Below are positions 6,555 to 46,495 of a stretch of 64,000 nt of DNA, in pieces. A program made the position numbers and the translations under genes. How positions within the stretch are numbered: position 1 is the stretch's first letter; every line of letters begins with the position of its first letter. A model generated the notes under the pieces. The model was not told the DNA's origin. It ran no database searches and saw only the letters and a program-made list of their open reading frames with translations. Source of the DNA: Thermomonas sp. (GTDB taxonomy: Bacteria > Pseudomonadota > Gammaproteobacteria > Xanthomonadales > Xanthomonadaceae); NCBI RefSeq assembly GCF_023953935.1, contig NZ_JAMLIW010000001.1:529732-593731 (forward strand), written 5' to 3'.

Positions 6555-6653
6555 GTGATTCGTGATTCGTGATTCGTGATTCGTGAAAGCGGTTGGTGGC
6601 GGGCGGTGTGCTCTTGCAAATCACCAATCACCAATCACCAATCACGAACCACC
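6555..6653. repeat. Heptamer-armed inverted repeat, copy A
   Basis: The left arm has four GTGATTC units (6555-6582) plus a partial fifth. The right arm has four AATCACS units (6619-6646) plus AACCACC. Each 6-base block pairs with its partner, while most seventh positions face C against C and stay unpaired. The loop is about 36 bases of unrelated sequence. It lies between the aminotransferase stop (6656) and the mdh ribosome binding site. Confidence 0.9.
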
Positions 6654-6655
6654 AT

Positions 6656-7855
6656 TCACTTCAATTCGGCAAAAAATTCCTGGATGCGCGCCAGCCCCGG
6701 CGCTAGCTGATCCGGCGGGCAGGTGTAGCTGATCCGCAGACCGCGCGGGTCGCCGAAGGCCGAGCCCGGGACACAGGCCACGCCCTTGGCCTCGAGCAGG
6801 GCGCCGCAGAACTCGACGTCGTTCTCGATCTTCACGCCGTTGTGCGACTTGCCGAAGGCGCAGGCGATCTCCGGGAAGGCGTAGAACGCGCCCTGCGGCA
6901 CAGGGCACACCACGCCGGGAATAGCCGTGAGCGCGGCGACGACCTGATCGCGACGCAGCTGGAATTCGGCGCACTTCTGCGCCGGCACGTCCTGCGGGCC
7001 GGACAGCGCCGCCACGGCGGCGGCGGTGACGACTTCCGGCAGGCTGGTGATGTGGTTGGAATTGAGGGTCGTGACGGCCTTGGCCACGACTTCCGGCCCG
7101 ACCATGAAACCAACCCGCCAGCCCGGCATGCCATAGGTCTTGGACAACGAGTCGATGAAGATCGTGCGCTCGCGCAGCTCCGGGCGGAACTGCACGAAAT
7201 TGGCGTATTCCAGCCCATCGAACAGCATCCGGTTGTAGATGTCGTCGGTGATGATCCAGGTGTCCGGATGGCGCGCGATCACCTCGGCCAGCGCTTCGAT
7301 TTCCGCGCTGGTGTAGACCATGCCGGTCGGGTTGGACGGGTTGTTGAACAGGAACACCTTGGGCTTCTTCGCCAGCGCGGCGTCGAGCTGGTCGGGCGTC
7401 AGCTTGTAGTGCTGCGAGGCCGGGCACGGCAGCAGGTCGACCTTGGCATTGACGATCTCGGCGATATCGAGATAGCTGGTCCAGTACGGCACCGGGAAGG
7501 CGATGGTGTCGCCTTCATCGAGCAGCGCCTCGGCGAGATTGTAGATCACCTGCTTGGCGCCGATCCCGACCGCGCAGTTGGCGCGACCGTAGCCGTTCAG
7601 ACCCAACCCGGCAACATGGCCCAGCAAGGCGTCCAGCAGGGCGTCACTGCCGCGATTGCTGCCATACTGGCCGCTGTCTTTCGCAATCGCCTCGCGTGCG
7701 GCAGCATAGACGTGTTCGCCGGGCAGGAAATTCGGAACGCCGATGGAAAAGCTGATGATGTCCCGCCCTTCGGCCTTCAGGCGTTTGGCCTTGTCGGCAA
7801 TCAGCATGATGACACTGGGCTTGGCGCGACCGATGCGCCGTGCAAGTTGAGGCAT
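6656..7855 (-). CDS. PLP-dependent class I aminotransferase (aspartate aminotransferase-like)
   Basis: A 399-residue fold-type I aminotransferase. Features: FSIGVPNF near residue 40, a YGSNRGSDALL substrate/cofactor region, NNPSNPTG, DDIYNRMLF, and SLSKTYGMPGWRVG with the Schiff-base lysine at Lys239. The Arg of RISYTC near the C-terminus would bind the substrate carboxylate. This pattern fits the Bacillus/Thermus-type aspartate aminotransferase branch; the preferred amino acid cannot be decided from sequence. The ATG at 7855 (MPQLARR) gives the family length; upstream in-frame sequence runs into the divergent lipoprotein gene. It precedes mdh on the same strand. Confidence 0.88.
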   Translation of the reverse strand: MPQLARRIGRAKPSVIMLIADKAKRLKAEGRDIISFSIGVPNFLPGEHVYAAAREAIAKDSGQYGSNRGSDALLDALLGHVAGLGLNGYGRANCAVGIGAKQVIYNLAEALLDEGDTIAFPVPYWTSYLDIAEIVNAKVDLLPCPASQHYKLTPDQLDAALAKKPKVFLFNNPSNPTGMVYTSAEIEALAEVIARHPDTWIITDDIYNRMLFDGLEYANFVQFRPELRERTIFIDSLSKTYGMPGWRVGFMVGPEVVAKAVTTLNSNHITSLPEVVTAAAVAALSGPQDVPAQKCAEFQLRRDQVVAALTAIPGVVCPVPQGAFYAFPEIACAFGKSHNGVKIENDVEFCGALLEAKGVACVPGSAFGDPRGLRISYTCPPDQLAPGLARIQEFFAELK

Positions 7856-18280: not shown

Positions 18281-18343
18281 CCCGGCCCTCGCGCATAGCG
18301 CTCGGGCGTTCCCCCGGCCCTCGCGCATAGCGCTCGGGCGTTC
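18281..18343. repeat. Tandem 31-base direct repeat
   Basis: The unit, starting CCCGGCCCTCGCGCATAGCG and ending GCTCGGGCGTTC, occurs exactly at 18281-18311 and 18313-18343, a period of 32 bases. Each unit contains the inner dyad GCGCATAGCGC. It is not part of a coding frame. Confidence 0.9.
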
Positions 18344-25782: not shown

Positions 25783-25876
25783 GTGATTGGTGATTGGTGA
25801 TTCGTGATTCGTTGGAGCGGGATCGCCGGGGCCTTGACGGCTTTGGCAAATCACCAATCACCAATCACGAATCACG
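25783..25876. repeat. Heptamer-armed inverted repeat, copy B (rplE/rpsN)
   Basis: Four GTGATTS units on the left (25783-25810) and four AATCACS units on the right (25849-25876), with a 38-base loop. Six-base blocks pair, while seventh positions alternate between pairing and mismatch. The element occupies almost the whole gap: the rplE stop lies 8 bases from one end and rpsN begins 15 bases beyond the other. Confidence 0.92.
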
Positions 25877-33761: not shown

Positions 33762-33863
33762 GTGATTCGTGATTGGTGATTCGTGATTCGTGACAGGGAA
33801 GGTGATCGGTGACTGCCGAGCGAATCGCTCTTGCCAATCACCAATCACCAATCACCAATCACG
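33762..33863. repeat. Heptamer-armed inverted repeat, copy C (fusA/tuf)
   Basis: Four GTGATTS units (33762-33789) and four AATCACS units (33836-33863) with a 46-base loop. The fusA stop codon (33859-33861) is within the last right-arm unit, and the left arm ends exactly where the tuf ribosome binding site begins. Confidence 0.93.
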
Positions 33864-41763: not shown

Positions 41764-41879
41764 GTGATTCGCGAGAGAGCGTGATTCGTGATTGGTGATT
41801 CGTGATTGGGAAATTGGATTCGCGACCGGATTCGATGCTGTTGCTTCCTCGAATCACGAATCACGAATTCCCAATCATC
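41764..41879. repeat. Heptamer-armed inverted repeat, copy D (rpoB/rpoC)
   Basis: Four GTGATTS units (41781-41808) face four right-arm units (41852-41879: AATCACG twice, then the diverged AATTCCC and AATCATC), with a 43-base loop. An extra GTGATTC lies at 41764-41770. The element starts 6 bases after the rpoB stop; on the rpoC side the CGGAG ribosome binding site follows at once. Confidence 0.92.
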
Positions 41880-46051: not shown

Positions 46052-46109
46052 GGATCGTGCGCCTCAATTTCATTCGGCCGCGTGGCGGCCTACGGGGGTG
46101 TCAGGAACC

Positions 46110-46172
46110 GACAGTTGGAAGTCGCTGGTATTGCCGGCACCAGCACGCCCTCTCCCGCTACTTCCGACTGTC
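46110..46172. repeat. Heptamer-armed hairpin with GACAGTY/GGAAGTM units
   Basis: Left arm GACAGTT-GGAAGTC (46110-46123) pairs with right arm TACTTCC-GACTGTC (46159-46172). The 6-base blocks GACAGT and GGAAGT are perfectly complementary and the seventh positions mismatch, the same design as the GTGATT family with different sequence. Confidence 0.75.
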
Positions 46173-46190
46173 AACTCGGGTGGAGCCGTA

Positions 46191-46281
46191 AGACGAGAAA
46201 CGGGAGACGAGAAACGGGATTTGCGCGCGTGTGCAGGACATGCTCGACAGAACCTCGTCTCTCGTCTCTCGTCTCCCGAAA
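46191..46281. repeat. Heptamer-armed hairpin with AGACGAG/AAACGGG units
   Basis: The left arm has alternating AGACGAG, AAACGGG, AGACGAG, AAACGGG (46191-46218). The right arm has CTCGTCT three times and CCCGAAA (46254-46281). The 35-base loop and four units per arm equal the GTGATT elements elsewhere in the window. Confidence 0.85.
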
Positions 46282-46344
46282 CCCGGCCTTTCACTACAAC
46301 GGCCAAAGGCCGGGAGCTTTCGCCCCCAGCCTTGGCTGTTTGCC

Positions 46345-46371
46345 GTCATCCCCGCAACAGCGGGAATCCAG
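46345..46371. repeat. REP-like palindrome, first of an inverted pair
   Basis: GTCATCCCCGC-AACA-GCGGGAATCCAG, followed by a T-run on the plus strand. The partner at 46423-46449 is in opposite orientation, a BIME-like arrangement. Confidence 0.8.
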
Positions 46372-46422
46372 CGTTTTTTGCTGCGACTTCTGCGATCAAC
46401 TTGACAAGCCAATCTGATGAAA

Positions 46423-46449
46423 CTGGATCCCCGCTTGCGCAGGGATGCC
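46423..46449. repeat. REP-like palindrome, second of an inverted pair
   Basis: CTGGATCCCCGC-TTGC-GCAGGGATGCC, the same element as 46345-46371 in reverse, and in the same orientation as the copy at 32490-32514. Confidence 0.78.
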
Positions 46450-46451
46450 GC

Positions 46452-46492
46452 ATCGGCAAGGCCGCTCGCGCCACAGACGCGAGCGGGCCGAT
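46452..46492 (-). terminator. Stem-loop after rplL, candidate attenuator
   Basis: Inner stem CCGCTCGCG / CGCGAGCGG (9 bp) with a 7-base loop, extended by ATCGGC / GCCGAT. It begins 3 bases after the rplL stop and has no U-tract. Its position matches the rplL-rpoB attenuator of enterobacteria, so partial termination is plausible. Confidence 0.65.
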
Positions 46493-46495
46493 GCG

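Follow-up and report, generated by a model that had tools for sequence, protein, structure and literature searches.

Why do gaps between genes such as fusA and tuf, or rpoB and rpoC, hold long inverted repeats built of one seven-base word? The question is raised by a stretch of 64,000 nucleotides of a Thermomonas sp. genome, hereafter the window, in which four gaps between core genes carry hairpins made of GTGATTS units. A first-pass annotation of this DNA had proposed a role in setting the ratio of the neighbouring proteins. The analysis described here leans instead towards a family of short, self-spreading repeats, organised much like REP dimers and tolerated beside gene ends.

Heptamer hairpins in the window

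The four GTGATTS hairpins (Table 1) lie where the first-pass annotation had placed them, with four 7-base units in every arm when diverged units are included, and their existence is borne out by word counts, by a word-agnostic scan and by shuffling. Specifically, the window contains 42 copies of GTGATTS where 15.6 would be expected, and none of 100 shuffles reached 42. A strict scan for inverted pairs of tandem runs, blind to the word and covering periods from 4 to 14, returned exactly these four sites at period 7, three of which reappear at the harmonic 14, and none at periods 4-6 and 8-13. In 100 block shuffles of the window no period-7 inverted pair was found. The loops measure 35, 37, 45 and 42 nt at the sites beginning at 6555, 25783, 33762 and 41781, respectively, the RNA folding z-scores of the four sites range from -4.5 to -6.8, and all four are without any G-rich array.

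At the fusA-tuf site the arm 33835-33862 consists of four GTGATTG units on the minus strand and is adjoined by a cap, GCTCTTGC on the plus strand, at 33827-33834. The intimate contact with the flanking genes is confirmed by the coordinates: the TGA stop codon of fusA falls within the unit 33856-33862 (minus strand), while the GGAG preceding tuf directly abuts the other arm. Between the aminotransferase gene and mdh two diverged units extend the hairpin to 6659 and a cap occupies 6610-6617; between rplE and rpsN a cap-like GCTTTGGC is present at 25840-25847. The rpoB-rpoC arm 41851-41878 is formed by only two exact and two diverged units, and an extra unit is found at 41764-41770.

NCBIfam assigns the neighbouring genes as mdh, an aminotransferase gene, rplE (L5), tuf (EF-Tu), fusA (EF-G), rpoC, rpoB and rplL. 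The NCBIfam search gave no match for S14 at the 1e-40 limit, and the small gene after rplE is read as rpsN (S14) from its sequence and gene order. Rfam, applied to the window at the gathering score, returned five tRNAs only, and the hairpins match no known structured RNA. No target site duplication is evident by eye at the rplE-rpsN site. Full termination within the rplE-rpsN and rpoB-rpoC gaps would be implausible.

A fifth hairpin, in the rplL-rpoB gap, follows the plan of the other four with a different word; tandems of GAGACGA are rare in the genome (3 matches). In the same gap (46052-46495, minus strand) further inverted repeats are visible by eye, for example GGGGATCCAG...CTGGATTCCC and GACAGTCGGAAGT...GACTTCCAACTGTC. 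Elsewhere in the window, at 18281-18343, a 32-base unit is present in two tandem copies with a 100% match.

Table 1. Heptamer hairpins of the window (positions numbered from its first base)
Location	Coordinates	Strand	Arms	Word
Aminotransferase gene-mdh	6555..6659	-	6555-6582 and 6618-6645	GTGATTS
rplE (L5)-rpsN	25783..25875	-	25783-25810 and 25848-25875	GTGATTS
fusA-tuf	33762..33862	-	33835-33862 and 33762-33789	GTGATTS
rpoB-rpoC	41764..41878	-	41781-41808 and 41851-41878	GTGATTS
rplL-rpoB gap, upstream of rpoB	46188..46284	-		AGACGAG/AAACGGG

A capped monomer in facing pairs

The anatomy of the repeat was studied at loci of the same genome chosen by pattern match, namely 24 loci and the window, amounting to 281 kb of 2.59 Mb. 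In 26 hairpins from this genome, 17 left and 17 right arms hold exactly four units, and 39 of 71 arms with at least two units have four; for the 65 arms of up to nine units, a geometric fit would expect a fraction of 0.148 at this number. All 52 arms of the 26 hairpins are followed by a G, and most of them by G[AC]AA[GA]AGC; in a broader set 56 of 62 arms have a G directly after them. A cap GNAARAGC, scored as at least five of seven positions, accompanies 42 of 62 arms of this genome and, in other genomes, whose words vary, 33 of 50 arms; the same score is reached by 1.8% of random 8-mers and by 3 of 112 8-mers from the middle of loops. In other words, the monomer of the repeat is some 36 nt long and in most cases composed of four 7-base units and an end cap GNAARAGC. 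Folded alone, three of three monomers did no better than their own shuffles.

Monomers occur in pairs that face each other. The ratio of convergent to divergent arm pairs is 31:1 at the loci of this genome and 10:0, 11:2, 2:1 and 8:0 elsewhere (31:3 summed), all pairs being kept for these counts; for the arm and cap statistics 6 of 31 pairs from other genomes were dropped by hand as spurious, and for the gene positions and stem mismatches 4 of 23 pairs from G183, G006 and G017. Of 242 units, 231 end in G or C. The interiors of 23 loops are mostly unrelated, with one of 253 pairs above the highest null score, so that the similar interiors expected among copies of a MITE are not seen in these loops. 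A heptamer hairpin family with unrelated loops, situated between genes and near their ends, as the first-pass annotation had described, is thereby upheld.

A few long and mostly uniform arrays, of up to 24 units, exist as well. At L193 (3938-4063), L194 (1736-1819) and L195 (3972-4034, where the array stands at a contig end) long one-sided arrays mix blocks of GTGATTC and GGGATTC. At L169 (3972-4151) and L194 (16193-16561) groups of GTGATTS are split by GGTAGGGAC or GGGAAGGG-like caps, in the manner of tandem monomers.

Occurrence in the genome and in the family

The search of the genome and its relatives for tandem GTGATTS that the first-pass annotation had recommended revealed a genome-wide family. 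In the 2.59 Mb genome there are 337 tandem matches (174 and 163 of GTGATTSGTGATTS) and none to a control pattern written backwards; 67 overlapping matches fit the convergent pattern. Counted by word, the 337 matches to GTGATTS stand beside 56 to GGGATTS and none to GGGAATS, a minority of G-rich arrays being present. Among the named records listed, from which near ones may be missing, the closest to its fusA is Arenimonas composti at 82%, which would put the genome in or near the Xanthomonadaceae/Lysobacteraceae. In the family, 101 of 296 genomes, spread over 26 of 54 genera, have at least one tandem match of GTGATTS, and a single genus spans from 587 matches to none among its species. Within 68 chosen family genomes GGGATTS tandems are found in 39 and GGGAATS tandems in 30; these genomes were hand-picked from high and low counts, and their two-peaked repeat load is in part a consequence of this choice (G302, for which there is no GTGATTS count, was omitted). 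The heptamer format with other words (GGGATTS, GGGAATS, GGGACCC, GGGAGAC) is thus patchy across the family.

Scans for the format itself gave a more graded picture. Stretches from 20 family genomes, 18 of them of 20 kb and two shorter, with four (G040, G208, G255, G123) taken at known GTGATTS places, returned seven rows at period 7, two sharing an arm; nine other periods yielded no row. A laxer scan found in G183 four hairpins at period 7, with four at 9, one at 6 and one at 11 as well; in G006 eight at period 7, one at 9 and one at 12; and in G017 one at 7. The stretches of G006 and G017 were placed at regular steps, except for C1:1-20000, in genomes picked after high word counts. Period 7 is therefore clearly prominent only in the strict scans and in G006. 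Outside this setting, 80 named fusA loci (1.18 Mb, mostly from outside the family) contained no period-7 hairpin. Carriage by viruses was considered and rejected, the hairpin pattern having 0 matches in viral_contigs.

Position relative to genes

In G183, G006 and G017, where intergenic DNA makes up 14-22%, 17 of 19 hairpins are intergenic. Of these, 11 lie between co-directional and 6 between convergent genes and none in divergent gaps, the background being 198, 45 and 65 (p 0.029 for divergent). In the Thermomonas genome itself the hairpins are distributed like the background, with 23 in co-directional, 2 in convergent and 5 in divergent gaps and one inside a called gene. The observation that all hairpins lie between co-directional genes consequently stands for the window and fails in the genome, where convergent and some divergent gaps are occupied too; nor is a special link to co-directional genes supported, since 34 of 47 intergenic hairpins occupy co-directional gaps and 306 of the 456 gaps of the background are of this kind (p 0.52). 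By hand count, 41 of the 47 have at least one edge no more than 20 nt from a called gene. Genes were called by codon bias, and some of their starts and ends are misplaced, as in the case of the called rpsN start and at L161/L255.

The same gaps in related genomes

Comparison with relatives indicates that the elements are present or absent at one and the same gap. Between rplE and rpsN the gap measures 116 nt here when counted to the equivalent start codon, or 131 nt to the start as called, against 9 nt in G212, G225, G051 and G296, that is, in four of four relatives with data. The rpoB-rpoC gap has a length of 140 nt here. Of 13 relatives with data, 10 have 69-72 nt, the remaining ones being G298 (105 nt, with a misplaced gene end), G199 (112) and G183 (154). 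The gap near L170:7070, the second of two at this locus, measures 131 nt here and 15-20 nt in three of ten relatives (G302, G225, G260); in the other seven it ranges from 39 to 114 nt, which means that this gap is also subject to other causes of variation. At mdh the gap measures 110 nt in this genome, and in the nine relatives with data, where no heptamers were seen by eye, it spans 43-100 nt; the L170 and mdh gap lengths derive from alignments of the flanks. G302, the nearest relative sampled, has no element in the five gaps inspected. In the near relative G167 the space between fusA and tuf contains degenerate GTGATTS units, and absence from that gap is therefore not general. These differences between relatives would reflect gain of the element, judging from the aligned gaps. 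With regard to the earlier statement that the hairpins are not recent copies of one mobile element, it holds insofar as no whole-element copies are seen; presence and absence at the same gap among related species speak against it.

A different aspect is offered by G183, which has heptamer hairpins of its own in five of the eight gaps with data that carry them here; of 35 other gaps none has one (p 6e-5). The fusA-tuf gap stands outside this table, and some of the G183 stretches were placed at hits of the loci studied here, including one (L255) for which the hit was to the hairpin itself; the table is also affected by the caller errors at L161/L255, where G183 does hold a similar hairpin. At rpoB-rpoC, the two L170 gaps, the L163 gap and fusA-tuf, the words of G183 (GGGACCC, GGGAGAC, GGGATTS) differ from those found here. 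Conversely, the word and the loop agree in the hairpin of L161 and in the one before rpoB, which in G183 lies at the place matching 46188-46284; from this similarity, both look inherited. Further relatives have other palindromes in the first L170 gap; some of these start with GTAGGAG, which we take to be REP-like. The same gaps are used repeatedly, via insertion preference, selection or tolerance.

Agreement and pairing between the arms

The majority base at positions 2, 5 and 6 of the unit is common to both arms in 158 of 165 cases. Permuting genome by genome gives 130.6, and none of 20,000 permutations came as high; for this test each right arm was represented by a single row, which lowers the number from this genome from 31 to 30. 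By subset, the p value is 0.17 for misc alone and 0.013 for G006, G017 being uninformative. The seventh position behaves differently: it agrees between arms in 30 of 55 cases against 28.9 (p 0.45), and in equal-length arms of this genome 20 of 44 seventh bases are pairable, where composition predicts a fraction of 0.466. At positions 1-6, in co-directional hairpins and in unit pairs agreeing at four or more of six positions, 79 of 852 stem cells are mismatched, of which 14 keep a wobble pair, 23 are the mirror changes and 42 are transversions. The predicted pairing of the Shine-Dalgarno region varies by site from 0.22 to 1.0. Each site has a word common to both arms, yet there is no sign of base-by-base upkeep of RNA pairing, because position 7 is uncoordinated and the mismatches have no wobble bias. 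These two results (p 0.45; 14 mismatches against 23) lend no support to a finely tuned RNA hairpin or to a role in setting protein ratios.

Search for a mobilising enzyme

The genome contains one match to Y1_Tnp, at L196 (G000:C9:70728-71054), with no heptamers in the 3.3 kb around the gene. Inverted repeats of TGTCCCTGACACC lie on both sides of this match, and a gene pair that is presumably IS3-like comes after it. Among the 33 genomes that reach 30 or more tandem matches, eight lack a Y1_Tnp match, and over 67 genomes the rank correlation between repeat load and Y1_Tnp count is 0.06. A link to a RAYT was rejected on the grounds of the single match lacking nearby heptamers and of the missing correlation. 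RVT_1 (PF00078) has a match in 18 of 67 genomes and none in the Thermomonas genome, and a reverse transcriptase link was rejected for the latter reason.

What the hairpins may be

Somewhat better than an even chance is given to the reading that the hairpins belong to a REP-dimer-like (BIME-like) family of self-spreading short repeats. It builds on the computed monomer plan, facing pairs and placement, on presence and absence and word differences between species, and on occurrence without Y1_Tnp or RVT_1. Monomers of about 36 nt would be laid down as facing pairs across a site-specific spacer of roughly 20-70 nt, near gene ends, where the pair is presumably transcribed into a long imperfect hairpin. 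Spread would take place in bursts, aided by some factor, and the elements would be tolerated beside gene ends. Their effect on the host may be mild, acting on the stability or processing of mRNA at the 3′-end or by segment, as has been proposed for REPs, rather than being tuned to the operon. Counting against this reading are the monomer, which has no fold of its own (three of three), the transposase, of which none was found, and the concordance of words between arms, which fits selection for pairing as well.

The latter possibility, that of selected intercistronic RNA hairpins that would set the ratio of neighbouring proteins through mRNA stability or by hiding a ribosome binding site, is considered rather unlikely. 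The stable predicted folds, the words shared at positions 2, 5 and 6 and the same-gap hairpins of G183 argue for it, and since hairpins recur at the same gaps it keeps a place in the discussion; together with the positions between shared ORFs reported for Xanthomonas in the portions covered of Rehm et al. 2015 (PMC4692102), the G183 hairpins would be compatible with selection that keeps a hairpin at these places or with insertions that are old. Such a function accords poorly, however, with mismatches devoid of G-U bias, arms unmatched at position 7, the lack of the element from the five gaps inspected in G302, the occupation of convergent and some divergent gaps, and the wide range of predicted pairing of the Shine-Dalgarno region. 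A seventh base that is G or C regardless of pairing and the preference for four units would be natural in arrays of duplex-DNA sites for a putative repeat-binding protein that accepts C or G freely; we know of no protein that binds the heptamer repeats, their words vary among sites of one genome, and this explanation is judged improbable. Plain slippage, producing microsatellites that face each other by chance, might account for the few long uniform arrays; it is a very poor candidate for repeats with a four-unit mode, an end cap, convergent polarity and mixed seventh bases. Slighter still is the chance of mobilisation by a RAYT-type Y1 transposase or a reverse transcriptase. In its favour are the REP-like layout and the one Y1_Tnp match, but a general requirement for either enzyme is already contradicted, within the sensitivity of the Pfam search, by repeat-rich genomes devoid of Y1_Tnp, by the negligible correlation with Y1_Tnp count, by the lack of RVT_1 in the Thermomonas genome and by the heptamer-free surroundings of its Y1_Tnp gene. 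The slimmest prospect of all is that of G-quadruplex repeats, as for GGGAATC in Xanthomonas: the layout and the four-unit preference match the covered portions of Rehm et al. 2015 (PMC4692102), but the G-runs of GTGATTS do not exceed GG, at the unit joints, and four units are still commonest. The four-unit format found here is not explained by quadruplexes because GTGATTS lacks the G-runs of the Xanthomonas class.

Going beyond the REP-dimer-like reading, a doubtful proposal is that of a repeat class defined by its format, about four 7-base units and a cap in facing pairs, and not by its sequence, the word varying blockwise in both arms between species or sites and the seventh base being free to be C or G. 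If true, it would need an undescribed repeat-making or copying activity, neither a RAYT nor a PF00078 reverse transcriptase, that reuses the same gaps. If the word is truly replaceable, a comparison of repeat-rich with repeat-poor species from a single genus would be a way to look for this machinery. In any case, the definition of a monomer with a cap permits the class to be counted across a bacterial family, and such inserts are possible even in the rplE-rpsN and rpoB-rpoC gaps.

Comparison with known systems

No earlier description of GTGATTS hairpins was found in the open-licence literature. Several known repeats share part of their features. REP dimers or BIMEs, in the portions covered of Di Nocera et al. 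2013 (PMC3733652), are formed by GTAG- and CGTC-tagged repeats with spacers mostly of 20-100 bp, lie near 3′ ends in the gaps between unidirectional and between convergent ORFs, and are uneven in number among species; the CGTC families are without a linked transposase. Facing pairs, a variable spacer and proximity to gene ends are found here too. According to the same portions of that paper, a REP is itself a small stem-loop, whereas the heptamer monomer is no palindrome (three of three folded alone), and, unlike the GTAG families, the heptamer repeats have no linked RAYT gene. The P6b stem of the Nostoc tRNA-Leu intron, in the part covered of Kaasalainen et al. 2015 (PMC4476775), is a stem of 7-base repeats in which one of two word classes, TDNGATT and NNTGAGT, is repeatedly replaced by the other at one place; it differs in being inside a group I intron of cyanobacteria. 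The TAACTGA heptamer repeats of Beggiatoaceae, as presented in the portions covered of MacGregor 2015 (PMC4679880), are many and intergenic and mostly lie directly before start codons, those of ribosomal protein genes among them, a placement reminiscent of the one described here; they are direct repeats, however, with one indirect repeat only.

The closest relationship is with the heptamers of Xanthomonas, as far as the portions covered of Rehm et al. 2015 (PMC4692102) extend. There, GGGAATC heptamers of two Xanthomonas genomes are proposed to form quadruplexes, prefer four units, occur as convergent inverted pairs (70 in Xcc and 75 in Xac), and are mostly intergenic, near gene ends and between aligned ORFs, most of them between the same ORFs in both species. 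The same portions include the Xanthomonas repeat GGGNATC and the Nostoc repeat GGGGA(T/C)T, and cite a heptanucleotide GTGATTA in Helicobacter pylori. The 7-base period, the four-unit preference, the convergent pairs and the intergenic position are all shared by the hairpins of Thermomonas, whereas their word has no G-tracts and is not of the quadruplex-capable GGGANTN type. The end cap, the 36-nt monomer, the other words at the same gaps and the arm-to-arm statistics go beyond the portions covered of that paper (PMC4692102). The hairpins described here are consequently a variant of the Xanthomonas heptamer format and not members of its quadruplex class. What is new is that GTGATTS, free of G-tracts, keeps four units as the commonest arm, and the format therefore does not need quadruplex formation.
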